Part shown: in pieces, positions 20,901-44,900 of the stretch
How positions within the stretch are numbered: position 1 is the stretch's first letter
Layout: every line of letters begins with the position of its first letter
From: Siphonodentalium dalli
Taxonomy: Eukaryota > Mollusca > Scaphopoda > Gadilida > Siphonodentaliidae
NCBI GenBank assembly: GCA_032622095.1
Contig: CP136063.1
Span: forward strand, 7,109,814-7,173,813
DNA: 64,000 bases
Direction of reading: 5' to 3'
Position numbers and translations under genes: made by a program
The notes under the pieces: model-generated
What the model saw: the letters and a program-made list of their open reading frames with translations, nothing else
Told to the model about the DNA's origin: nothing
Database searches by the model: none

Positions 20901-23900
20901 ATTGTAGATGATTAGTATAGTATTCGGGAACATATATACATAGCGTTATCCAAGTTATCGTGTGTATGCGGTATGGGTGGTCTACACCATATAGTATTAT
21001 AATATATACACTGTAGGTATAACTAGAGTTAAACGCTCTCTATATTATATTGTTAAACGCTCTTTATGTGACCAAGTTAGCTATATATAGCTATCATATC
21101 GAAAACATTGTGGCAATATACCAGCTTATATATACGACTAATTCGAGTCTCACTCGCATATATAAGATAATGCATTGGCCTAACAACATTTGCATTGACC
21201 GTGTAAGCCAGTGCATTCTCATATATATTTGAGACTCTCCATGGGCGCCACTCTTGTTTATAATACACTATACTTACGACTCCACTCTTGGTATTTACTT
21301 TGTCCCGAGGATCATTTGACATTTCCTTCATCTCGTATTCCTGCGAGCGCCCTGGTAATGAGAGAAGGTTAGTTTAACGTTTCGAGCTACACCAGGGATG
21401 AAGCGCTATACAAATGCTATATATTATTATTATTATTATTAACCATACACACCCAGACAAAAATATATCGGTTAATTAATTTAATATTTGTTTGCATTCA
21501 TTTTAACTAACCAGTACCTATTCGGAATTTGCCATGATAACAATCGGTGACATCCGTCATTATTGTCTATAACACTACAATATATTTCTCTGTAACTAGT
21601 TTTCCCTTGACACCCTTCAGGTGATTTCTATTTTCCTGCAAATAATGGTGATATTATTTGAAATCGCATCGTCACTCTTAATTCACTGTCATATAATTTG
21701 ACCTTCGGCCTAATTTGAACCATTACTGCTTGTCGCGGCCATGAGTTATCTCCGTGAGTTAATGCTTTGCGCGCTCTTACCCCATTGTGTATGATTTCTC
21801 TGATTTATCCAACTTACAGTCATCATGTTTGATTCAAAATCGTTTGGAGTAAAACAATATATATTTTCAAAAAATCTAACTTTTTACACAAACACAACAC
21901 ACATTTAGATACATAGATATTTAGAAAGACGATTGGACAACAAGCAAAATACTTATTTAAAGTCCTCTCCTCGTGGAATAAATGTTACCTCATCATGCTA
22001 CGGAAATATCACTTGAGGTAAAGCAGACGTGATATATAGCTTTTGTTGGACTGGAATGTTATTACATATTTATAATTGAGATATGGATATAACATTGCGA
22101 TACGGGAGTTAAGGGCGAGGGTGAGAGAGAGAGGGAACGATTGAGTGAATGAATGAGCGAGCGAGAGATCGCTTTGAACAACATACACTAGATAACAAAA
22201 CAACACAACATCAACCATTCAGCGATGAAATCACTTGCACTTATGTGCCACGAGCACGGATGGGAAAACGCGGTTCATGCATAAAGCCACGTCGATTGTA
22301 GTGATATATGATAAACGGCCACTATATGATAAACGGCCACTATATGATAAACGGCCACTATATGATAAACGGCCACTATATGATAAACGGCCACTATATG
22401 ATAAACGGCCACTATATGATAAACGGCCACTATATGATAAACGGCCACTATATGATAAACGGCCACTATATGATAAACGGCCACTATATGATAAACGGCC
22501 ACTATATGATAAACGGCCACTATATGATAAACGGCCACTATATGATAAACGGCCACTATATGATAAACGGCCACTATATGATAAACGGCCACTATATGAT
22601 AAACGGCCACTATATGATAAACGGCCACTATATGATAAACGGCCACTATATGATAAACGGCCACTATATGATAAACGGCCACTATATGATAAACGGCCAC
22701 TATATGATAAACGGCCACTATATGATAAACGGCCACTATATGATAAACGGCCACTATATGATAAACGGCCACTATATGATAAACGGCCACTATATGATAA
22801 ACGGCCACTATATGATAAACGGCCACTATATGATAAACGGCCACTATCTAAAATAAACTTCTGTACCGCCAAGAATATTTCGGAATTTAATTTGTTTGGA
22901 AGTTCGTGAGATCCGTACAATAGGACCTTCGGTTTTGTATCATACTTACGGGTAACGTACTTGGAATTTCTGAGCTAGTTCTGGCGTAAAGAGGGCATTG
23001 GAAGATGAAATGGTAAGCTGATTCAATTTAAAAACTACCGTATTGACATAATGGTGATTCTTTCATGTGATTAATAATAATTTAGCCCGCTAAATTGCAT
23101 GTGTTTGTAAGTCTTTTCCTGACCTGAATTTGTAGTGACACCCACCAGAAACCAGGTTGGCTTTTATTGGTGCAGGTAGAAACAACAATATGTAACAATA
23201 TCTACTGATAGCTCGACGCTGCGTGAGTATGTTAATATCAAAGGTCATTGCCTTTGCTCCATACTCTATACATTTATCTCCGTGGGAAAGCGACCCTGTG
23301 TGAAAAGACTAGCTCATTTCGCCTACAAAGAATATATGTATATTAAACATGTTTGGAGGTGCACCGTATACGTGGTCCAATCGAAATGCGACACGGATTG
23401 GAGCAAGGGTGTTGGCCAGATATAGATATCTCGCAACCTCCACGCACGCTTAGCGTAAAGATGTAATATATATTGCTCTCCGTGACTGTTCGTTTGACGT
23501 GTTTATACTTGTGTTAATAAATCTCATTATGTCTAAGATTTCTTACTTAGTGGAAAGGAACCTGGGAGTACTACACATATAGCTGCCTTAACTAGCGTTG
23601 TTTTTTTAAATTAAGTTGCGTTTCCTCTGCACAAAACTGGAGTCCCCGATTGGCTATAGTGATGGTATTGAAGGTACTCAGTTGGGTATTAATGCTAACA
23701 CCCGGATAAGCGGTCGTGGCGATGTTCGTGTTGCATATACATACATCAATGTTGGGTATAAATGTTGTCTAAAATGCAATAAGGTTAGGATGTTTTGGTT
23801 AAAAGTGAATTTTGGGGTTTCGGTGTGCCCCTGGCCCCTTTATGCTGTAATTGCGAAACTTTATAGTTTGGTTTTGCCGTCAGCCCGGTGCTCCTCTCCT

Positions 23901-26900
23901 CGGGAACATCAATCCGGGGTACAACATATCAATGTGGGGTACAACATAATATCCGGAGTACAACAATCCGGGGTACAACAATCCGGGGTACAACAATCCG
24001 GGGTACAACAACCCGGGGTACAACAATCTGATATAAAACAATCCGGGTACAACAATCCGGAGTACATCAATCTGGGGTACAACAATCCGGGGTACAACAA
24101 TCCGGGGTACAACAATCCGGGGTACAACAATCCGGAGTACATCAATCTGGGGTACAACAATCCGGGGTACAACAATCCGGGGTACAACAATCCGGGGTAC
24201 AACAATCCGGGGTACAACAATCCGGAGTACATCAATCTGGGGTACAACAATCCGGGGTACAACAATCCGGGGTACAACAATCCGGGGTACAACAATCCGG
24301 GGTACAACAATCCGGGGTACAACAATCTGGGGTACAACAATCCGGGGTACATCAATCCGGGGTACAACAATCCGGAGTACATCAATCTGGGGTACAACAA
24401 TCCGGGGTACAACAATCCGGGGTACAACAATCCGGGTACAACAATCCGGGGTACAAAAATCCGGGGTACAACAATCAGGGGTACAACAATCCGGGGTACA
24501 ACAATCCGGGGTACAACAATCCGAGGTACAACATAATATCCGGAGTACAACAATCTGGAGTACATCAATCCGGGGTACAACAATCCGGGTACATCAATCT
24601 GGGGTACAACAATCCGGGGTACAACAATCCGGAGTACAACAATCCGGGGTACAACAATCCGGGGTACAACAATCCGGAGTACAACAATCCGGGGTACAAC
24701 AATCCGGGGTACAACAATCCGGGGTACAACAATCCGGGGTACAACAATCCGGGGTACAACAAACCGGGGTACAACAATCCGGGGTACAACAATCCGGGGT
24801 ACAACATAATATCCGGAGTACAACAATCCGGGGTACAACATAATATCCGGGGTACAACAATCAGGGGTACAACAATCCGGGGTACAACAATCCGGAGTAC
24901 AACAATCCGAGGTACAACAATCCGGGGTACAACAAACCGGGGTACAACAATCCGGGGTACAACAATCCGGGGTACAACATCAGGGGAACAACAATCCGGG
25001 GTACAACAATCCGGGGTACAACAATCCGGGGTACAACATAATATCCGGAGTACAACAATCCGGAGTACATCAATCCGGGGTACAACAATCCGGGGTACAT
25101 CAATCCGGGGTACAACAATCCGGGGTACAACAATCCGGGGTACAACAATCCGGGGTACAACAATCCGGGGTACAACAATCCGGGGTACAACAATCCGGGT
25201 ACAACAATCCGGGGTACATCAATCCGGGGTACAACAATCCGGGGTACAACATAATATCCGGAGTACAACAATCCGGAGTACATCAATCCGGAGTACATCA
25301 ATCCGGGGTACAACAATCCGGGGTACAACAATCCGGGGTACAACATAATATCCGGGGTACAACAATCTGGGGTACAACAATCCGGGGTACAACAATCCGG
25401 GGTACAACAATACGGGGTACAACAATCCGGGGTACAACAATCCGGGGTACAACAATCTGGGGTACAACAATCCGGGGTACAACATAATATCCGGAGTACA
25501 ACAATCTGGGGTACAACAATCCGGGGTACAACAATCCGGGGTACAACAATCCGGGGTACAACAATCTGGGGTACAACAATCCGGGGTACAACATAATATC
25601 CGGAGTACAACAATCTGGGGTACAACAATCCGGGGTACAACAATCCGGGGTACAACAATCCGGGGTACAACAATCCGGGGTACAACATAATATCCGGGGT
25701 ACAACAATCTGGGGTACAACAATCCGGGGTACAACAATCCGGGGTACAACAATACGGGGTACAACAATCCGGGGTACAACAATCCGGGGTACAACAATCT
25801 GGGGTACAACAATCCGGAGTACAACAATCCGGGGTACAACAATCCGGGGTACAACAATCCGGGTACAACAATCCGGAGTACATCAATCTGGGGTACAACA
25901 AACCGGGTACAACAATCCGGAGTACATCAATCTGGGGTACAACAATCCGGGGTACAACAATCCGGGGTACAACAATCCGGGGTACAACAATCCGGGGTAC
26001 AACAATCAGGGGTACATCAATCTGGGGTACAACAATCCGGGGTACAACAATCCGGGGTACAACAATCCGGGGTACAACAATCCGGGGTACAACAATCTGG
26101 GGTACAACAATCCGGGGTACATCAATCCGGGGTACAACAATCCGGAGTACATCAATCCGGGGTACAACAATCCGGGGTACAACAATCCGGGGTACAACAA
26201 TCAGGGGTACAACAATCCGGGGTACAACATAATATCCGGAGTACAACAATCCGGGGTACAACAATCCGGGGTACAACAATCCGGGGTACAACAATCCGGG
26301 GTACAACAATCCGAGGTACAACAATCCGGGGTACATCAATCCGGGGTACAACATAATATCCGGAGTACAACAATCTGGAGTACATCAATCCGGGGTACAA
26401 CATAATATCCGGAGTACAACATAATATCCGGAGTACAACAATCTGGAGTACAACAATCTGGAGTACAACAATCCGGGGTACAACAATCCGGAGTACATCA
26501 ATCCGGAGTACAACAATCCGGAGTACATCAATCCGGGGTACAACAATCCGGAGTACAACAATCCGAGGTACAACAATCCGGGGTACAACAATCCGAGGTA
26601 CAACAATCAGGGGTACAACAATCCGGGGTACAACAAACCGGGGTACAACAATCCGGGGTACAACAATCCGAGGTACAACATATTATCCGGGGTACAACAA
26701 TCCGGGGTACAACAATCCGGGGTACAACAATCCGGGGTACAACATAATATCCGGAGTACAACAATCCGGGGTACATCATAATATCCGGGGTACAACAATC
26801 AGGGGTACAACAATCCGGGGTACAACAATCCGGAGTACAACAATCCGAGGTACAACAATCCGGGGTACAACAATCCGGGGTACAACAAACCGGGGTACAA

Positions 26901-29900
26901 CAATCCGGGGTACAACAATCCGGGGTACAACATATTATCCGGAGTACAACAATCCGGGGTACATCAATCCGGGATACAACAATCCGGGGTACAACAATCC
27001 GGGGTACAACATAATATCCGGAGTACAACAATCCGGAGTACATCAATCCGGGGTACAACAATCCGGGGTACAACAATCCGGGGTACAACATAATATCCGG
27101 AGTACAACAATCCGGGGTACATCAATCCGGGGTACAACAATCCGGGGTACAACAATCCGGGGTACAACATAATATCCGGAGTACAACAATCCGGAGTACA
27201 TCAATCCGGGGTACAACAATCCGGGGTACAACAATCCGGGGTACAACAATCCGGGGTACAACAATCCGGGGTACAACAATCCGGGGTACAACAATCCGGA
27301 GTACATCAATCCGGGGTACAACAATCCGGGGTACAACAATCCGTGGTACAACAATCCGGGGTACAACAATCTGATATAAAACAATCCGGGTACAACAATC
27401 CGGAGTACATCAATCTGGGGTACAACAATCCGAGGTACAACAATCCGAGGTACAACAATCCGGGGTACAACATAATATCCGGAGTACAACATAATATCCG
27501 GGGTACAACAATCCGGAGTACATCAATCTGGGGTACAACAATCCGGGGTACAACAATCTGGGGTACAACAATCCGGAGTACAACAATCCGGGGTACAACA
27601 ATCCGGGGTACAACACTCCGGGTACAACAATCCGGAGTACATCAATCTGGGGTACAACAAACCGGGTACAACAATCCGGAGTACATCAATCTGGGGTACA
27701 ACAATCCGGGGTACAACAATCCGGGGTACAACAATCCGGGGTACAACAATCCGGGGTACAACAATCCGGGGTACAACAATCCGGGGTACAACATAATATA
27801 TATGAATCGATGACACCTGTTCGGAAAAGTTTATAATTCCGTATCAGTGTTATGTGAGTTAATTAGTATTATAATAGTCGAGCTTCTACGTATTAGATGC
27901 TCGTAAGTGGAATAGGAAAAGCATGATATCTTGGGGAATTGTATTTACTTATATACCATGTGGGTGAATACATAATGTGGTGTTTGGTAATACACATCGG
28001 GATTGGTCCCGCTGTTATGGTCATTTCCTATGACCATATTTGGGAGCCGTCTTCGTTGTGTGTAGGTCTTGGCTGGGAGTAAGATGTGTGAGGCTTCCTT
28101 AAGGAACCGAACACGGATATTCGAGTTTTTGGGTTCTACCTGTTGGGACAATTACATGTATATAATTTATACGCAGTGTTATATATCATTGAATCAAGTT
28201 ATGGGAATAAAATGGGGAATGGTTAGTTATGTCACAGTTATCACATCAGCGGGTCAGTTGAGTTGGCTATTTATGGAACAGAATCATTCGCGGTAACATT
28301 CATGGAGCACCAAAAGCGTACCGAGAAGGACAATTTTATCTCGTTAGGATAATATGGTTCTTTATAATATGTCAGGTCCATGAAACTCACCAGAACGCTC
28401 CTCACAGCACTTGGTTATCTGCAGCCAGAACATAACGAATGCGTACCAGGCAACAAAGGCGTACAGTATGTATGTGACGTAGTCTGGTATAGTCAGGTCA
28501 TCCATTCGGATGCCTCCGAAGATTGCAACAACTGTGAAATATAATATAAATCATGTGATGTAGGTCGGTATTGTCAGGTCATCCATTCGGATTCCCCGGA
28601 AGAGTGCAACAACTGTGGAATCTCCTATACATTTTGAGACTTCCGTATATTTGTCCTCTATAGAATCGAAAACGGCTGTCTCGATTGAGCTCAAACTTCC
28701 CATCTAAGGGTAAAAATTAACGGGAATCGCCTTCGCGGCGTTTTGGAGAAGCTCTGATCACTCATTCTCCACTCCCAATCACAAAAACGGCACTGCGGGG
28801 GTTGATGACGTGATAATTTAATGAGCGTTTGTATATGACGTGTCGTTATAAAAGAGCGTTTGTTTACAATTCAACACAACGTTATCGCTCGAAATTTAGC
28901 ATCGAAAAAATTGAATTTCTTTCATCAAAAACATAATTACGCGTTGGACTGTCATTTTAAGGAATATGTAAGTATTACACACTGACACACCAAGCCTCAG
29001 CTTACAATTTTGAAAAATAAGAGTTTTATCGACATAAATCGATTTTAATGGGAAATCCTGTGTTAAAATTTAGCATCGACACATTTTAATTTCTTCCATC
29101 TAAAACATAATTACGTGTTGGACTCTGTCATTTTAAGAATATATAAGTATTACACTCAGACACATGAAGTCTCAGCTTAATTTGTTTAGAAATAAGAGTT
29201 TTATCGACTTTTAATGGGGCATCCTATGTTAATAAATTTGAGAGCCCTGCGAGTGTTTGCACCAGGTCTATATTTGACAAATTCTACCTGATATATTTTG
29301 CTTTTGGAAACTGGGGATTTCTAATTTCGTAGTTAGGGCTTCCAATGGACGGGGGAGATTTTCGTCGGGTCAGTTTGTCCGCCTCAAGTGACCTTGACCT
29401 TGAAACGGGTACCCACAAATTACATTGGGCGATATCTCGGTCGTCAGCGGTGACATCGACGTGAAATTTGTTATGTATGGTCAACTCGGGACGGGGAATA
29501 TTTTGTTCGGGTTATATATGCCTGTACGGGGTTACTTTGAAAAACTAAAATTAATGGATCGACCAAAGCCATGGGACCAATGCCGCCAGTGGCGGGCTAA
29601 TCTGCTAGTATACTATAAATGATGTGAGTTAGTATGGTCTAGTCAAGTCATTAATCCGGATTCCTCCGAAGATTGCTACGACTGATGATATTTTAAAAGT
29701 ATGGACTGTGCATCAGTCGCTAAACGCATTACAAATGTGGAATATAATACAAAGTTATTATACAATGTTGTGTACAGTATGTGTTTTTCTTGTACTCGTC
29801 CAGGTTGTGGTGAAAAGTCAAATTGGACGAGACACGCAGTCGAGTCCAATATGACTTTTCACCGCAACCTGGACGAGTACAAGAAAAACTCATACTGTAC

Positions 29901-32900
29901 ACAAAATTGTATAATGACATTTGTTATTATCCATCTGTACGTTTATCAAAATGTTGGGAATAAAACTTTAGTGGTTACTGTTGGTATTTGTCGGCACTTA
30001 ATTCTCTATAAAAGCCTGTATTTGATCATCAGAAAGCATGATTTGGAACAGTAAACACGGAAATAAAAAAAAATTCAATGCGGAAGTGAAACGTCTGCTA
30101 AATCCACGAGCGCGCATCACAATTTCAACGATTCATTTCGAAAGAGTTAATTCGTGACGTCACAGAGTCCCGATAAAAAAGTAATATTGCACACTTGGGA
30201 GTCAAATATGACATTCGGGAGTCCAATAAGACTTTTTCCCGGATTATCACATGGCGGTTTTTGCCCAATCAGAAATAGATAATAATATAAATCATGTGAT
30301 GTAGGTCGGTATTGTCATGTCATCCATCCGGATTCCTACGAAGATTGCTACGATTGTGGATATAATATAAATGATGTGAGTTAGTATGGTCTAGTCAAGT
30401 CGTCAATCCGGATCCCTCGGACGATTGCTACGACTGAGGATATATACAGCGTATGCACTGTACACCTGTCGCTATACGCATTACAAATGTGGAATATAAT
30501 ATAAATCATGTGATGTAGCCATCATCATCATATATGTCGATATTGTCAGGTCATCGGATTCCACCGAAGATTGCTACGACTGTGGATATAATATAAATCA
30601 TGTGATGTAGCCATCATCATCATATAGGTCGATATTGTCAGGTCATCCGGATTCCTCCGAAGATTGCTACGACTGTGGATATAATATAAATCATGTGATG
30701 TAGCCATCATCATCATATAGGGCGATATTGTCAGGTCATCCGGATTCCACCGAAGATTAATACGAATGTGGAATATAATAGAACTTTCCCATGATGAAAA
30801 CAGAGATGCATACCGAATGAATTATAACATAGTAAAATCAGTAATGGAATCAGTTTAGATTTAACTCGCGTGATACCCAATAGTTGTTAGTGCTCTATAT
30901 ATAATGCATAAGAAAACTAACTTCATTTTACTGGTATGGATGGCAAAACACCAATAACATTGGGTCAATGTATATAACTGATGTTGGCCGTTAATGCAGG
31001 TAAAATATAATGGTATATTCGATACCCGATATACGAGAGGACGTGCACTTTCTTGCTCATTGTATTTAAACTTTCCGACTGATTCTGAATATGTCTATGC
31101 AGCTGCCTGTCAAAAGTACATGACAGCTTGTGCTGTGTAAGTCGTGCTACTCTTTGTTGTGTCAGTTAGAGAAGAGATACAATGTTCCAATGATGTTACG
31201 TCGGGTTATGCTTCGTTAGACTTTTACATGTACTTGAATGTGGAATACATAACTACAATGCATGGCGCCTAACGCTAGTGTATATATCTTCGGATAACGA
31301 TCAACGTTATTCACCATCTGACGTTTGCAACATACCGAATTATTAATTGTATGCTACTTGTATTTCCATATTATTTCCGCACTGGACAGGGGGGGTCGGA
31401 TTTTTTTTTCAGACACTTATGCTACTTTTTTGCTGATGACAACGTTTTGGACCCACCCACCCCGATCCCAATTTTTTTCCATTCCATTTCCATTTTGTTC
31501 CAGTCATGTTTTGATATCCACCCCTTGTGGAACGCAAAACACAAACATACAGAGAAAACAAGGACCAAACCTCCTACATTGAGATTCAGTGAATCTAGTA
31601 ATGAACAACAGGACTGGTTCTAGCAGTGGATTTTGTCCCTAGAAACATGTGAATAGTCTGCTTACCGATCTAGCACAAATAATGGTGAGTACATTAAAAT
31701 ACCCCAAGCTGATCATTCAGTCCCTTGGCAAAATCATAGTAAAAACAATATAGCTGAGTGTCCAAGAAAGAAATTATGAAAAGCTTTAATTTCTCACAAA
31801 ATACTGAGCTTCCAAAGTTTACAATTTTGTTTGGACAAAATATGACAAACAGGATATAGTTATTCCTCTTGTGTCATTTGAAATCTTTAGCAAATGAGCC
31901 AATGTCAAGAAAGGTTAATATTACGATTGATTCCAATTGATTGGTCAGGATTGGTTAGGAATTTTATAACGTTCACAGTTTATCTTGTATGAATTCAGGA
32001 ATCTTGTATGAGTTCAGAATAGGCATTAGTTCTATTGGACTGCTCAGGTGTAGCATGTGAGAGTAAAGCATATAATACAAAAACAAACCTACACTTTTAG
32101 TACAAACCTGTATTAACTCATTCATGACTATATTAGATTGTGAATTATTACCATTTTCTATCTCTTTTGTCACATATGAGATAATTGTGTTATCCACTCA
32201 CAAGTCTAGTAGGTTACATGTTTTTTTTTATTTATACATCAGTGTATACATCAGTGTTTGACCAGATTTGGCATTCAATTTATTTCTAGAATACTGCATG
32301 GGCGATTCAGCTGCATTAAAAGAATACTTTCCCTTGTCCTAAAGAGGCACAAACCAACATCCAATGGCCTAGCGTGTTTAGTGTTGCTGCATTTCCTTAT
32401 TATTGATTTCTTAGTCTTACAAACCAGTACAAACTAGTAAAAATCCAATAAAAGGTGTGAAGGAAAAAATATAATTTTGTCACTGAAAAAATTGCTTTGG
32501 GCTTATTTTGACACCCACCACCCCCATCATACGTGTCGGAAAAATTATTCCCCCTGCACTGGACAGACATGATGGTGTGCTTTTAAGCTCAGGGCCAAGA
32601 TATACCACACTAAAAGTCAACCAATCTAATATCAGCAAATTCGAATACAATAATTGTCATCTTTGCATCGTTTTCGGAAGGAGGGCTTGTTAGATGCAAA
32701 CAAATGCACGTTATCACACAGTGGGACCACGGCAGATCGGTTGGCAGTACTGTGCCACATTACTCGAATTTTGCATGACTTTGGTGCAATATAATGGAAC
32801 CGGTCTGATTTATTCCACAATAATTACGCTCAACTTACTTCCGAGCGCATGCGCACTAGCACCCACAATCCAATGCGCGACGTTGAATATCGGTCTCTTC

Positions 32901-35900
32901 TTGTCTTTTGGTCCAGGTCTGCACATAGCCATGAACGGCTGCAAAAGTAAAAATAAATATGCATATACTTATGGATGTAACATACGTATTTAGGTCTGAG
33001 TGCGAGAATACAAGTCATAATTTAAAGCAAGCACAGCAAACATCATATGCAATATAAGAACGTATAAATTACCGAAGGTTGTCAAAAATTACAACCACGT
33101 CTATTTCAAACACTTTGACTGCATATTTACATGAAACTAACACAGGTGTTGCTGCTAAAATGGTCACATCGGTTAAAACCGACATAAGCACAGATACTGA
33201 ACTATAGACATATCACACACATAGTGAATAGTATGTTATTGAGTTGTTATGAGAGCAAATTCCAAGTTATGTTGTAGTACAGTTAGTAACTAGTGTGAGA
33301 TAAGCAAAACACCCAACACCGCAGTAATAGTATCATTATTCTATGATACTAGTGTATTATTGCGGAAATTACAAACAATTGGTAACCTTTATTTCAAAGT
33401 TATAACATACAGCCAAGGACATCCGAGCCTTTAATGATATGTCTGAGATACCAACACAATTTATTAATAATTATTACAACAGAGTGGTTCATCAATTTAT
33501 TACAATTATGGGAATATGGCTGTTCTGTTAGTTGGTTTGGTATAAATCTCATCGTCATAAAATTTATTTCTGAGCAATCCATTATATAATAGAAATCATA
33601 TCAAATCAACATGTTGTGTCGCATACTGTACACACTCCCGCCTCGGCGGCCATATCGTTCCGGAAGCCGACTTCAGTGGGCAATTTGTGGCTCCTGTGTC
33701 GGAATATTGACAGAGTCGTTGTCTTGTTAACGTGCTGCTATGGCAAATTGTGTCGTTGTTATGCGATGTATTCTACATAAGTATACGAATCGACTAAATA
33801 TTTTGCCATCTCTGCTGATGCTGGTTATGTAACGATGTCCACACTATAATGCTGAGCTTGTGTTTGACAATAGATTGTGTGGATACATGGACACTTAACT
33901 TACATTTATCAGAGTCAGACCAACACATATCGTGCCGAACACTGGATGATATTTATGGATTATACTGTCAGAAGTTATCTGAAATAGAACAAACATTCAA
34001 ATTTATCGATCGTCCTATAATCATTGGAATATGCCAATTGTTTCTATATAAAACACGTACTAGAGCCACCATTTGACCACTTCATATACTTATTTGCATT
34101 TCGATATGGACAAAGGACATACATTGTAACGGTATCCATTCAACTAGTTCTAGAAAGAACGACACTTGTCTCAGTAAGATCTACCATAGTATGAACGTTG
34201 CATGTATGTGAACATCAGACTGCCGATTGACGTAATTAATATATAGGCCTCAGCTGTCAAAGCGTGTTGTTTTATATACTGTTTTGTATAATATATGTGG
34301 ACACATAGTTGCAATTTTCGATCAATGTGAACCAATCTTGTTGATGTAAGACTAATATCCAAGCTATATAAATGTATTCCCACAAGTATATAAGGTCTCA
34401 GTATAAGATTTCTTAGAGTTGGAATATATGGCTTGTTCTAAAACGTTTAATCTATGCTGTCTTTCAACCCGTTGAAACGAGGTTCATTGGCAGGTCATCG
34501 CAGTACAGTGACGGGATATATGTCAAGAATCAAATCTCTAACCGAAAGCGGTTTACATTCTAAATTTGCTTGAACATATATACACGGTTGGTTGATAGGA
34601 CAAACTAGTAACTGAGGTGTGGAAAATAGCAATGCATATTCAAGCATCAGTATAATCGTTAAAAACTTACATTTGTATCTGAAATTAAGAATGCTAATAT
34701 ATATCGATTGTGCCAATATTTTGAACATAAAGTTCACCTAAATCATTTAATATAATATGTTCGTAAAATGAACACAATCACTATCACTCGCAAATACAAT
34801 GACACGTGCACCAAAGGTCTAGTTCATCCACTGCATGAGCTCCATGTATTAGCTATGGGAACGGCTGAATCGAAGGTGTAGAGACTACAGCAACTGCATG
34901 CGTTCCAGGTATTAGCTATGTGAACGTCTGAATCGACGGTTTAGAGACTACAACAGCTGCACGAGTTCCATGTATTAGCTATGGGAACGGCTGAATCGAC
35001 GGTTTAGAGACTACAACAACTGCACGAGTTCCATGTATTAGCTATGGGAACGGCTGAATCGACGGTGTAGAGACTAAAACAACTGCACGAGTTCCCGGTA
35101 TTAGCTATGGGAACGTCTGAGTCGACGGTATAGACACTAAAACAACTGCACGAGTCCATGTATTAACTATGGGAACGGCTGAATCGACGGTTTAGAGACT
35201 AAAACACTGCACGAGTTGCGCACACCAGCTACCTGAACGTCCGAGGCGATGGTATGTTTAAGTATTACATTAGCCTGGCATGATATTCACCAATCAGTTA
35301 AAATCAAGTTTCCTTATTGGGGTTTGTGCGTGGTTTCCGAATTGGAAACAATGTGCAGGTAGCCTTATTTTAGCAACATTACATGTAAATCAGCCCATTG
35401 TTACTTAAACCAGTCCATGCTTACTTACATCAGACCATTCTTACTTACATCAGACCATTCTTGTTCCTTGACGAAAATAAGGATGAATCCAGTGCAGGCG
35501 CATAGAAATACGATCACCATACACGTCCTGTGAACCTATAAAATGAAGGCAAAGTTAAGCGTGGGAATGTGCAGAATGATATTAAACAGTGCTATGGACT
35601 TTTCCATAACTGTCAATACTATACTTATGTTCTACAAATCTGCTGCATTGAAATGCTGTAGTCATCCTACACGTGATATATGCACATACTTTCCGTATCG
35701 GTTTGTTTAATTACAAAGAATGTTTCTATTGTGACGTCATAATGTATTGATCTATCGATTTATACAACGATATTGGAAATCCAGCCATAATTAAAAAAAC
35801 TAGATTTAATTTTGCGTGACACACGTTATATTGTTCACACTTAAATATGCGGTGTAAACCTAATTACAATTGTAGGAATACGGTTTGTGTCATAACAACC

Positions 35901-38900
35901 GTAAGCTCTTCCCACTAATGAATATGCGTGGACACCTCCGGGAGTCACATGTAGTTTACGCGCATATATAATTAGGTGTGAGCCACATTTGGTTTAGACG
36001 CATAAATACGTTTGCTCGTTTCATGTGTTTTCATGTAACATCCATGTATTTGACTACATCTGTGTTTGATGTCATCGTTTGAACTCATGGCGTATTACCC
36101 TTGTATATACTACATCGTCGTTGATGAGTAGTTATCCGATAGATAATCTTAAGATAACATGTTCAACAAACAGGTCGTTTTTAAAACTTATTATCTACAC
36201 ATTTAAGTGCCGAAAAGGATAAACATGGCAACCGTTTATGAAGTCATGAATAAAGCCCTAGCAACTGATGACGCTCCCGGTGTCATTTCAACCTTTCCAA
36301 AATATGGGAACTCTTTGTTAACGTTCAAAATGATCTATTTTGGCTATTCGACTTTACTTTGGTATGTACGTTCCAAATATTTTCAAAATTTATGTAAACC
36401 GCTCCTGGATCATGACTCACAAATTTTGTATCATGGTGGACGGGAAAACCTGTATCTGCACAAATTGGGCAACAGAACCATAAACCACCCCATATCTTTA
36501 ATATGCTTTGCAGCTACGTTCCTTTTCCATCATGATATGCACACACCCGTTTTATGCACATATCACATGAAAAATTATATTAATAGCGACAGAATTATCA
36601 GTCATTTTACTATTCTATATCCTTTGTTGACTTATAGACAGCCGAGGGTTCGCCATCGGTTACCAGTCGATCCTTCATACTAGTATTTTCCTGCTATTCC
36701 GTGGGGTAGGTGTGGTGCTATCCACCCAGTTTGTAGTTACTAGGTCTTGACATCCCCTTGGCCATTTGGCATAAACCATAAAACATAAACAGGGGGCATT
36801 TGTACTTTGATTTATCTGTCATCTGATTGTGTTTCTTTAACATCACTCCAACACTAGTAGGTCATTCCCATGTACACCTTGTAAATTACTGTGACAACCT
36901 ATTTAGTATAAGACGGGATTAATGATAGGTCATAATTTGAACTATTTTTGTTGGTATCGCGGGTTATTGCAACCATGACAAGCCAACATGCAGATACGCA
37001 TGGCGCGATATAACCCCACATGCAGCATTGGAACGGCACAATACAACCCCACAACGAAAGCAGAGACGTGGCGACAGGGGGGTTTGGGGGGGGGGGTGTC
37101 TCACCCCCCAACTTTGGTCAAAATTTTCAACAGTTGGAAATTTCATACCTGCCAAAACATTAGATGGAAATTTCACACCAACAATAGGTTGAAAATGTTC
37201 TTGTAGTTTGATTTTCAAACAATTTATTGGGGGGGGGGATTGTTTTTGGACCAATATTTGCATATTTTCCTATTTTTTGTCAAAATATTGGAAAGAAATT
37301 GTCATCAGTTGGAAATTTTCCAACCTTATGGGGGGTGACAGGTTGGAAATTTCCAACACTTGGAAAGCTTGTGTCCTGGTCCCTCCCCCGTGGCCAGTCA
37401 AAAACTGATAGCTAAATTTAAGAAAACAATATGATCATACATTTGGTCATCATTGTCATTGGAATTGTCATCAGTTGGAAATTTTCCAACCTATAAAGTG
37501 GGGATGTCAGATTTTAAATTTCCAACTCTAGGAAGGCTTGATGCTAGTCTAGATGGTTGGATTTTGCGATTTTCTTGTTCAGATTTCAAAATTTTCGCAC
37601 ACCGGGCAGAACAACCACGGTCAGCCCGGTGTGTCCTGGTCTCTTGCCCGTAGCCGTGTGCATTTGTCTGGAGTTAGACCACTAGATGTTAGGATTTATG
37701 AAATTGTTCAGGTTAAAATATCTGAATGTTCTCATACCGGGAATTTAGAACCATGGTTTATGAATATATAGGATATTAGGCCTGAGAGTACTCAGGTGCA
37801 AGGGGGTGTGCAAATGGAATTATGCAAAACTTGTGTTTGGTCCGAATCTGATTCAAGGGGAGTGGTGCTGTTGGAATTTCCCAAGATGGACACCCCCAAC
37901 GGAGACCCTCTAGCCACGTCCCTGACCGAAAGGTGGAATGGTAGTACACGATGCATGTTCAAATTTGTCTGTGGGTCTCCACTTTGAGTATGCACAGTGA
38001 CATGTATGTTCTCAAGACAACAATGAATAATATGTCAATAGTTCTTTGTTTTGGCGATCGTTTGAACTCATGCCAGTGTGATTGTGATAATAATTCGTCA
38101 GCTTGACCAATAGTTATTAGTATAATGGGTGCGTGCTGGCAGGTTATTAGTATAACGAGTGCGTGCTGGTATGTTATTAGCACAAGTCCCTCTATTCGCA
38201 CGTGGATAAGACTGAAGAAACCGATGGACGAACATATCTAAAAATTTGCTCGGCAGGTAATTAACATTCATCATAATATAGTATGATGACGCGTCACACA
38301 AAATGCACCATGCTAAATATAGCAACGCGTAATTATACATACCTGAAACCATGCGTGCAGACCGGCGAACTTGGTGTTTGGCCATTGCATTTTGTACCAT
38401 GTTGCGCAAACTATCCCGATTGTAGCGAAACAAATCCATGCAGAAATCATCAAACAAGCTGCGAAATAGAGCATATGCATAGCATAAACCTTAACACTAA
38501 CACTAACCATAACTCGATCCCTGACCATATGCATAGCATAAACCTTAACACTAACACTAACCATAAATCGATCCCTGACCATATGCATAGCATAAACCTT
38601 AACACTAACACTAACCATAACTCGATCCCTGACCATATGCATAGCATAAACCTTAACACTAACACTAACCATAAATCGATCCCTGACCATTTGCATAGCA
38701 TAAACCTTAACACTAACACTAACCATAAATCGATCCCTGACCATATGCATAGCATAAACCTTAACACTAACACTAACCATAACCCTAACCCTAACCATAT
38801 GCATAGCATAAAACTTAACACTAACACTAATCATAACTCGATCCCTGACCATATGCATAGCATAAACATTAACACTAACACTAACCATAACCCTAACCCT

Positions 38901-41900
38901 AACCATATGCATAGCATAAACCTTAACACTAACACTAACCATAACTCGATCCCTGACCATATGCATAGCATAAACCTTAACACTAACACTAACCATAACT
39001 CGATCCCTGACCATATGCATATCATAAACCTTAACACTAACACTAACCATAACTCGATCCCTAACCATATGCATAGCATAAACATTAACACTAACACTAA
39101 CCCTAACCCTAACCATATGCATAGCATAAACCTTAACACTAACACTAACCATAACTCGATCCCTGACCATATGCATAGCATACACCTTAACACTAACACT
39201 AACCATAACTCGATCCCTGACCATATGCATAGCATAAACCTTAACACTAACACTAACCATAACTCGATCCCTGACCATATGCATAGCATAAACCTTAACA
39301 CTAACACTAACCATAAATCGATCCCTGACCATATGCATAGCATAAACCTTAACGCTAACACTAACCAAAACTCGATCCCTGACCATATGCATAGCATAAA
39401 CCTTAACACTAACACTAACCATAAATCGATCATATGCATAGCATAAACCTTAACACTAACACTAACCATAACTCGATCCCTGACCATATCCTTAACAAGC
39501 TGCGAAATAGAGCATATACATATCATAAACCTTAACACGAACATTAACCATAAATCGATTCCTGACCATATCATTAACAAGCTGCGAAATAGAGCACATA
39601 CATTGCATAAACCTTAACACTAACACTAACCATAAATCGATCCCTGACCATATGCATAGCATAAACCTTAACACTAATACTAACCATAAATAGAGCATAT
39701 GCATAGCATAAACCTTAACACTAACCATAACTCGATCCCTGACCATATCATTAACAAGCTGCGAAATAGAGCATATACATATCATAAACCTTAACACGAA
39801 CATTAACCATAAATCGATTCCTGACCATATCATTAACAAGCTGCGAAATAGAGCATATACATAGCATAAACCTTAACACTAACACTAACCATAAATCGAT
39901 TCCTGACCATATCATTAACAAGCTGCGAAATAGAGCATATACATATCATAAACCTTAACACGAACACTAACCATAACTCGATCCCAGACCATATCATTAA
40001 CAAGCTGCGAAATAGAGCATACACATAGCATAAACCTTAACACTAACACTAACCATAAATCGATCCCTGACCATATCATTAACAAGCTGCGAAATAGAGC
40101 ATATACATATCATAAACCTTAACACGAACCATAAATAGAGCATATACATAGCATAAACCTTAACACTAACACTAACCATAAATCGATCCCTGATCATATC
40201 ATTAACAAGCTGCGAAATAGAGCATATACATATCATAAACCTTAACACGAACCATAAATAGAGCATATACATAGCATAAACCTTAACACTAACACTAACA
40301 CTAACCATAACTCGATCCCTGACCCTAACCACGTTGAATTGCTGAGTGGGTATGTGCTCAACGGTGTTACTCAGTATTTGACTCAATTGACCAGCCAACA
40401 ACGCAGGTATACATGCGGCTTGAAACCCAACGAGTTAAGATACAGTTCAATTGATAGACAGTTGTTCGGCTCTGCCATGTTAAGAAATATGACAGAGAAC
40501 ATGGCAGATACAAATAAACTGTTCTTCCAAAGTATTCTGATTGTCTATATTTATTTTCATCGTTAATATCAGGGGACCCGTTCTTTATATCAGGGGACCC
40601 GTTCTTTATATCAGGGGACCCGTTCTTTATATCAAGGGACCCGTTCTTTATATCAGGGGACCCGTTCGTTATATATCAGGGGACCCTTTCTTTATATCAG
40701 GGGACCCGTTATTTATATCAGGGGACCCGTTCTTTATATTAGGGGACCCGTTATTTATATCAGGGGACCCGTTCTTTATATCAGGGGACCCGTTCTTTAT
40801 ATCAGGGGACCCGTTCTTTATATCAGGGGACCCGTTCTTTATATCAGGGGACCCGTTCTTTATATCAGGGGACCCGTTCTTTATATCAGGGGACCCGTTC
40901 TTTATATCGGCTCATTCTACTCGTTCAGCACCGTCTATACGCTATCGCATTCAACACGGACACACATGCAACGCCACTGACATTATTGCCGTGGGCTAAA
41001 AACCCCATCAAAACTAAGCTGCGATAGGATAATTTTATGATGAATAGTTATATTTGACATATATCAATATACGTGACACACAAAAGAAAGGTGAAGGAGA
41101 TGTAAAATAGCATGTATTTTAAACACACAACTGGTGTACTCGTTAGACATGTCACACACACTGGGTTTGAATGGTTCCCATAGTGCGATTGAAAAACAGG
41201 TAATAGTTCAAATTGTGTTCTGTTTTGACCAATATTAGTCCTATTGTCAAACTTTGGGACTGACATGGCCGCCTGTTCCTACATTTGAAGCTTAAGTGGT
41301 ATGTTTGTCTTGAGTGGTTAGAATCAAGTGGTTGCGCCCTGTCTGGTTAAATGCTAAATGGCAGTACTTAAACAAATGGCGTACATATAAAACAAAATTC
41401 GCTCGATTCGCACATATGCATTAGTAAACACATATGTATATCTACAGTATGGAAATACAAAATGTTAGACGAATAGAAAATAGTCCATATGATGCAAGGT
41501 CATAAACTCAAAATCACTGCCAGTGGTCCAAGACCATGCACTAACTTTGGATTGTCAAGACTTAAGTGGTAGTGCTCAATATGCTACTAAATTCAACTGC
41601 ACATCTTTCTGAACATACAGACAGCGTCCAAATTAAGTGGAAGCTACAAATATGGATATCATTGGAACCGGTTCATTGACCACACTGTGATGGTTACAGT
41701 TATGCCATGTGCCAATGCATTCTCTTATATGTGCGAGTCGACCATAGGTCGCATCGCATATATAAGAGAATGCATTGGCCTAAATAAAATATGTTTTAAC
41801 ACTTTTTACCATTTTTTCTTACATTCTTTAACAATTTTATAATTTGTTCTTACATTTTTTTACCATTTTTTATATATTTTTCTACATTCTTTGACAATTT

Positions 41901-44900
41901 TATAATTTTTAATATGTATTAGGCCAATGCATTCTCTTATATATGCGAGGCGACCTATGGTCGACTCGCATATATAACATAATGCATTGGCACAGGGCCG
42001 TTCTGTTGGGTAAAGGGTTAATCAAACGTAAAATTATCTGAACATATCCCACTGATCAATATAATACTTATGCGGTAAGAATATGTAACACCCACACAAC
42101 ATTCAATTACTCTTTGATAAATGGTAATTGATACCGAATCATCATATTGAAAGTGAGAAACGTTAATGTGAGCCCAATAGCCATATGAACGACGTTAGTG
42201 TTGGCACATTATTCCTACGAACGACTTCAACTTGCGAAATCGCCATATGCGGTTGCATTCGGTACAGTTTCAGATCTTCCTGAAATCGAACAAATAATTA
42301 AGCACTACATATTTCATTGATTGAATTATGTAAAATGTAAGCAGTTATATGTTATGTGAATAATCATATATTGAGATATACGCGAGATATATACGTCCAG
42401 CAGTTTGTGTCGTTGCCATGGTGGGAAATAACGTTGCCATGGTGTGATAGAATTGTGTAGCATGCATGCTGCAATATCAGATTGTTCGGTGAAATAATCA
42501 TGCATAGAACATGGCAATGAACACCATGTGGACAGCATGCTATATGTTATATGACATATGCCGTATGCTATATGTTATATGTTATATGCCGTATGATATA
42601 TGTGATATGCTATATCTTATTTACTATATCTTGCATACGCTATTGACTACACATCCACCGTGTTCCTTGACGCGAATCAACCCCGTCGTATGTATTAGTT
42701 ATGTATACTATCTGTGGGCTTTGACGGTTATTGGTCCCATAGTATTTGTTAGTTATTGATTAATAACAGTCGGCCTTGACTTGTGTTGGTCCGGTCGTAT
42801 TTATTAGTTGTTGCCTACTAGCCGTGGCCTAGACGAGTAGTTATTGAATACTATCCGTGGGCCTAGGCGAGTAGTTATTGTATACTAACCGTGGACCTCG
42901 GGGAGTAGATATTGAATACTAACTGTGGGCCATATCGACTAGATATTGAATGCTAACTGTGGGCCATATTGACTTGATATTGAATGCTAACTGTGGGCCA
43001 TATTGACTAGATATTGAATACTAACCGTGGGCCTTGTCGGTTAATTATTGAATACTAACCGTGTAACTTGAGAGGTAATTATTGAATACTAACCGTGAGC
43101 TTTTACGAGTTTTGGTCCCGTCGTATCCACAGTCCCCGTTAAATCGGCGACACTCTGAAAGTCGACTTTAGATGAAGAAACAACCGGTCGCAAGTCATGC
43201 TGAGTTATTGTGTGTGCTGACGAGCGCTTCCGCCGGCCCGATCCTGGAATTGAGCGGTAAGGTTATACATGTATTATTGTGTATGCTGACGAGCGCTTCC
43301 GCAGGCCCGTTCCCTGAATGGAGCGGTATAGTTATACATTTATTAGTGTGTATGCTGACGAGCGCTTCCGCAGGCCCGTTCCTTGAATGGAGCGGTAGAG
43401 TTATACATGTATTATTGCGTATGCTGACGATCGCTTCCGCCGGCCCGTTCCTGGAATGGAGCGGTAGAGTTCTACATTTATTATTGTGTATTCTGACGAG
43501 TGCTTCCGCCGGCAGATTCCTGGAATAAATTTATGCGTTATTTCTAGAAACTAGTTAACCCTTTACCCAACAGAACGGCCCTATGCCAATGCATTCTCTT
43601 ATATATGCGAGTCGACCATAGGTCGCCTCGCATATATAAGAGAATGCATTGGTTTAACACATATTAAAAATGATAAAATTGTCAAAGAATGTAGAAAAAT
43701 ATTATAAAAATTGTTAAAAAATTTAAGAAAAAATTAAAAAATTATAAATTTTTTTTAGGCCAATGCATTCTCTTATATATGTGAGGCGACCAATGGTCGA
43801 CTCGCATATATAAGAGAATGCATTGGCACAGGGCTAACTGTAACCATCACAATGTGGTCAATGAACCGGTTCCAATGATATCCATGTTTGTATGGTGTTA
43901 TTGAGACAGACGGAAGATATTTTAGGCTGTTGAAGCTTTATTTGGGCGTTTTTTGCCGTTTTGTTGGGTAAAGGGTTAAGCGCTATCATGTTAAGCGCTA
44001 TCATGTTAAGCGCTATCATGCAAATGATATATATCACGCAGAGAAATATCCGACTGGATGAACTCAGAACAATCCTAGTGGCACAAGAATACCAAATAAA
44101 CTAATTGATAATGGGATTTCTGAAGCCAAGGAAATTCCTCTCATAGAACTCTGCACAGATAAAACTAAAGAATGCGATCCCGAACTAAGTCCTTGTGTTG
44201 TTACGCAGTATTCTCGCAATCCAAATGCCATGCAAAAGGCTAGCTTATTAATACCTGTTCTTCATAAAAGTTCAAAGATGAAGGAACTGGTAAAACAAAT
44301 GGTCACCTACTGCAGAGCACACGACAGCCTCGGAATATAATTGTGATATTGTTATTGATTTCATCACGGCGGTCACGTGTCTGTGCTTATATTTTGGATA
44401 GATGCAATAACTAAATTATTAACACTGATTGCGGAACATTGTATGATATAGAAGAATATGTGGCTAAACTTAAATAGATTGCAATTTTGTCAAGTAAGAA
44501 TTAGGAATGATGTTTGTAGTCGAGTATGATGCTAATTGTACACGGGGCGACTGACTCCCATTGAACGTAAGTTAGAGTTTATGTGGTCGGGACTTAAATA
44601 CATATTATGTACTTGTTTTGGTGCATAAAACTGATCAGTTAGTATCCAGGCGCTATGTCAATTGGAGAAATGTAGAATTCTACTAACATTGCCGAAAATC
44701 TGAAAATCTCGATTCGGGACGCAACTATCGGAGATAAATTAACAAAAACGATTTCGCAATCGAGAGTTACTGCATTCGATTAATATACTACTTTGAACAA
44801 GATTATTCTCCATTCATATTTGATCACCATACCGGAGTGTTTCATATCACTTTAAGAGTACTCACCTGCCTGTGTTGGTCCCCTCGCGACCAGCATGAAA

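Follow-up and report, generated by a model that had tools for sequence, protein, structure and literature searches.

The exon-intron junctions of an FRRS1-like gene carry tandem arrays in which an acceptor or a donor is copied, together with adjoining exon bases, into the neighbouring intron. Judged from its DNA, this arrangement is a further case of the 'mirages' described in amphioxus rather than a new system. The gene lies on the minus strand of the 64-kb stretch analysed here (the window, C3:7109814-7173813), within a 2.23-Gb genome of nine contigs, and contains DOMON and cytochrome b561 exons. Junction-spanning arrays recur in a close paralogue (P) and in at least two other loci. The arrays are probably mirage-type minisatellites, which would start with a chance duplication across a junction, turn over as arrays and leave tolerated decoy splice sites.

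Homology, splice signals and the continuity of the spliced frame served to call the exons. Their letters, A to H, are those of the initial annotation and were assigned through coordinates, repeat periods and the exons said to be without copies. Exon A (63483-63397; all exons are on the minus strand) covers the middle of the DOMON domain and exon B (45025-44866) its second half; an earlier DOMON exon lies at 66.7 kb, past the window end. These are followed by exons C (43243-43094), D (38458-38343), E (35535-35449), F (33978-33904; 75 bp and phase-neutral), G (32938-32839) and H (28531-28391). Exon H encodes part of the cytochrome b561 domain and is based on homology to the paralogue and on the open spliced frame. 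Exons B, C, D, E, G and H form one open frame when joined, and their splice phases are the same in P, which supports the chosen junctions. Exon F was placed after this frame test. The surrounding region (C3:7040001-7183813, made up of L023, L005-L010, the window and L024) forms a minus-strand cluster in which at least five FRRS1-like genes or gene fragments, some of them apparently incomplete, lie in tandem.

For each junction we searched within 1.5 kb for the best ungapped copy with at least 6 bases on each side. In comparisons with the reversed neighbourhood a score of 18 is reached in 2% of cases and a score of 20 in none, so the junction copies are far above chance similarity. The acceptor of exon C has a 69-bp period with a score of 79 (99 bp, 90% identical), and TRF finds a 69-bp array (4.7 copies) at 43205-43526 on the minus strand, like all junction arrays of this gene, which includes the acceptor and about 39 exon bases. 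The donor of the same exon, CACG/gttagt (the slash marks the junction), is repeated with a 34-bp period (score 36) in an array of 8.6 copies at 42805-43097, and GT is lost in two of nine aligned copies. The acceptor of exon D, tttcgcag/CTTGTTTG, is copied upstream (score 62), and ctctatttcgcag/CTTGTT recurs eight more times, exactly or nearly so; the 54/82-bp array at 38472-40299 holds this acceptor and the first exon bases in eight units, and the periods range from 54 to 85 bp overall. The donor of exon E, GAT/gtaagt, is copied downstream with a 20-bp period (score 41) in a TRF array of 3.7 copies at 35389-35462, which includes 12-13 exon bases and is common to P. The acceptor of exon H, tttcacag/TTGTTGCA, is copied upstream at 81 bp (score 53). 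Both TRF and the copy search find this tandem copy (1.9 copies, with about 60 exon bases) at 28472-28621; seven extra copies reach back to 30.8 kb, and further units with a period of 80-93 bp, partly dispersed, lie at 29610-30780 (six copies, two without AG). The donor of exon A has a single weak copy at 81 bp (score 21). The same search within 1.5 kb finds no copy of either junction of exons B, F and G, of the exon H donor or of the remaining uncopied junctions.

These scores bear out, in almost every detail, the pattern that the initial annotation had described, with copies at C, D, E and H, a weak sign at A and nothing at F and G. The differing periods that it listed are also found (69 bp for the C acceptor, 34 bp for the C donor, 54-85 bp for D, 20 bp for E and, where it gave 85-95 bp, 80-93 bp for H). 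Its view of the arrays as independent events agrees with the unit sequences, which differ as the periods do, and with P, which has other units at the C and D acceptors.

Tandem arrays as a whole make up 22% of the window and 26% of the FRRS1-like gene. The 54-bp unit of the array at 38472-40299 contains telomere-like (TTAGGG/TTAGTG) stretches, and a long inverted repeat, or hairpin, is present at 29800-29880 in the intron upstream of exon H. A 3.8-kb array of about 251 copies of a 15-bp unit occupies 23951-27793, close to a perfect array of 30 copies of an 18-bp unit at 22305-22847. A palindromic element, CCAATGCATTCTCTTATATATGCGAG..., probably a MITE, is repeated at 41700-42000, at 43580-43830 and at 7.4-9.1, 13.8 and 16.9 kb of the window, often paired around an AT-rich spacer.

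In paralogue P (C3:7.048-7.062 Mb) six junctions carry separate arrays, whose units mostly differ from those of the window gene. These are the A donor (43 bp), the B acceptor (63 bp, 17.5 copies), the C acceptor (54-58 bp), the D acceptor (47 bp, 28 copies, with 26 extra acceptors aligned), the E acceptor (102 bp) and the E donor (20 bp). At the C acceptor the unit is 54-58 bp in P versus 69 bp in the window gene, and at the D acceptor it is 47 bp versus 54-85 bp. The sequences differ as well, so the arrays at both acceptors arose independently in the two genes. The 20-bp array at the E donor, common to both, is probably inherited. Beyond the pair, a 53-bp unit that comprises the acceptor and about 30 exon bases is present in 21-22 nearly identical copies in L016, a DOMON gene at C3:286.95 Mb, and the acceptor of an ABC-transporter exon (L040) is duplicated with a 27-bp unit. 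Unit lengths are 20-93 bp in the window gene and 20-102 bp elsewhere. A Pfam scan of one extra locus for more exons added little. Among other gene families of this genome, at least 24 cytochrome P450 matches, spread over many contigs, are full-length or nearly so in a single open frame exceeding 500 codons and apparently intronless, with many multi-exon ones besides, and tyrosine-phosphatase exons show a large clustered expansion around C5:43.8-45.3 Mb.

The initial annotation knew of no described system with this pattern, but the amphioxus mirages match it closely. These tandem duplications of exon-intron borders are known since 2002 from Adh3, and they were later reported in the globins BflGb6 and BflGb9, in TnC (troponin C) and in PGBD5 (PMC3087553, PMC3902484). 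They are intronic and minisatellite-like, with units of 10-160 bp at both 5' and 3' borders and with AG or GT kept or lost; splicing is undisturbed in RT-PCR (PMC3087553, PMC3902484). Their array length is unstable between haplotypes and somatic cells. The arrays described here likewise have units that span the exon-intron boundary, involve both border types (the C, D and H acceptors; the C and E donors) and consist of imperfect units of 20-102 bp, within the range of the amphioxus ones. The anatomy is therefore alike, and the terminal copies leave an open frame common to P. Unlike in the published examples, the arrays involve five to six junctions within one gene, and extra copies number up to 26-27 in the other loci. 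The published mirages that we found are all from cephalochordate hosts (PMC3087553, PMC3902484). Two observations speak against a lancelet as the present host: its genome measures 2.23 Gb in nine contigs, whereas lancelet genomes are about 0.5 Gb, and a search for the GFP family gave no match. Searches for a mollusc haemocyanin beta-sandwich and for an arthropod cuticle domain likewise gave none; all three were run without a positive control. Since the host is thus probably not a lancelet, mirages may extend to another phylum, and these are possibly the first outside lancelets among the reports that we found.

Within the units, intron DNA runs directly into exon DNA, which places the copying at the DNA level. 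In an array-rich genome, some 20-100 bp of DNA lying by chance across an exon-intron border would be duplicated in tandem, and the array would then grow and turn over by slippage or unequal exchange. Growth would be confined to the intron side, since a complete exon and its junction have to be preserved. The functional site would accordingly be the last, exon-proximal copy in acceptor arrays and the first copy in donor arrays; from the open frame we infer that splicing takes place at this terminal copy. The extra copies would be decoys, tolerated rather than selected for. The mechanism of duplication, the neutrality of the copies and correct splicing at the terminal copy are deduced, and this tolerated-decoy reading is supported by the share of arrays in the window, by their recurrence in P, L016 and L040, by the open frame of the terminal copies, whose phases are identical in both paralogues, by the like anatomy and undisturbed splicing of the amphioxus mirages, and by the ordinary diversity of the core dinucleotides described below.

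A role in splicing, with selection keeping the extra acceptors or donors because they raise splicing efficiency or provide alternative splicing, was one of the possibilities raised at the outset and now appears quite unlikely. AG or GT is still present in 68 of 80 copies in ten arrays, which would favour such a role. However, plain mismatch to the authentic site predicts 56 of 80, and about 67 of 80 are expected (an estimate from the retention figures) if the authentic core is frozen by selection, so that the observed retention is about what a frozen core would give. When the authentic copy is left out, at least 39% of the neighbouring dinucleotides vary as little as the core or less in every array. 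The core dinucleotides are thus as variable as their neighbours, several copies have lost AG or GT, and nothing indicates that selection maintains the copies for splicing. The upstream copies of the C and H acceptors in the window gene would, if used, run into in-frame stops (from the limits of the ORFs), and the 47-bp unit of P and the 53-bp unit of L016 would shift the frame. Tandem splice sites of the NAGNAG or GYNNGY type lie a few bases apart and are used alternatively. They resemble the present arrays in having neighbouring duplicate splice sites, but here whole units of 20-100 bp are repeated. NAGNAG sites and recursive splicing were rejected as explanations because the repeated units are whole blocks of intron plus exon.

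Two further explanations are less probable still. Repeat stutter in a long-read assembly is conceivable in that such arrays are difficult to assemble and the copies in L016 are nearly identical. In the majority of arrays in the window gene and P, however, copies diverge by 10-30%, either among themselves or relative to the authentic site, which stutter would not yield, and re-sequencing of lancelet PGBD5, which has the same anatomy, spoke against an assembly error (PMC3902484); an artefact is accordingly very hard to credit. Equally remote is the reading of the arrays as remnants of recent intron gain, in which an exon segment with AG and GT is tandemly duplicated (Rogers; Zhuo et al. 2007; Gao and Lynch 2009; potato RdRp, PMC4974935). 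Tandem duplications around splice sites are the raw material for this process, and duplicated DNA with splice signals is common to both cases. Intron gain, though, creates a new intron with matching borders, whereas the introns here are common to P in position and phase, and the donor and acceptor borders of the same intron are dissimilar in 10 of 10 introns (scores 0-4; the 95% point of the null is 6). The Rogers-type model fails here because these borders do not match.

The remaining alternative is that junctions are mutational hot spots for tandem duplication, for example because of co-transcriptional structure, R-loops or breakage at the edges of exons, or that anchored arrays survive and grow better. 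We hold this to be possible but doubtful. It was examined with 84-90 junctions in about 273 kb of genome sequence, and the outcome depends on how the arrays are counted. By base coverage there is no excess: a local copy exists at 37% of positions in the window gene, and circular shifts give on average 4.49 copied junctions out of its 12, where five are observed (P=0.50). Across 84 junctions, coverage relative to intron positions stands at 0.61 (95% 0.27-0.76). This test is biased against enrichment, because every copy is counted and long arrays inflate the intron background. When each array is counted once, the ratio for any copy is 2.2 (0.87-2.87), and junctions with three or more extra copies (K>=3, K being the number of extra copies) amount to 14 of 84 versus 1.64 expected. 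The window gene itself gives 5 of 16 versus 0.50, a test whose P value is unfair since the gene was chosen for showing the pattern. Without this gene and the recent duplicate P2 the count is 6 of 61 versus 0.89, with a locus bootstrap of 0-9.6 that reflects an excess residing mostly in P. The TRF-based collapsed test gives 3 versus 0.69 expected in the window gene and 5 versus 0.75 in P. Junction arrays also have more extra copies than intron units (median 4 versus 1).

Outside the FRRS1 cluster, however, 39 junctions give 2 versus 0.83 in the TRF test and 1 versus 0.22 at K>=3, neither significant, with an any-copy ratio of 0.74. The suggestion that junctions are preferred seeds gains from the five- to eightfold event-level excess, mainly in one gene cluster, and loses from base coverage. 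The enrichment within the FRRS1 cluster is suggestive, and genome-wide it is unproven. Anchoring may add to the excess, as a deletion that takes both an array and its junction would not be tolerated. For the tolerated-decoy reading, the excess at junctions and the longer junction arrays mean that purely random placement may be an incomplete account. We tentatively entertain, at less than even chances, that the borders act as genuine hot spots where multi-copy arrays arise or persist (about five- to eightfold over introns, with arrays counted once) in a non-lancelet animal, and that mirages are the product of a general process, mutational or of retention, connected with splice junctions.

Genes with 5-27 near-identical copies beside the true splice site are natural tests of how the spliceosome chooses its site, and junction arrays are raw material for intron growth and gain. 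Mirages in a non-lancelet host would mean that they are not peculiar to cephalochordates. If junctions turn out to be true hot spots throughout the genome, mirages would suggest that transcription or splicing is coupled to a mutational process, which is testable in any well-annotated genome.
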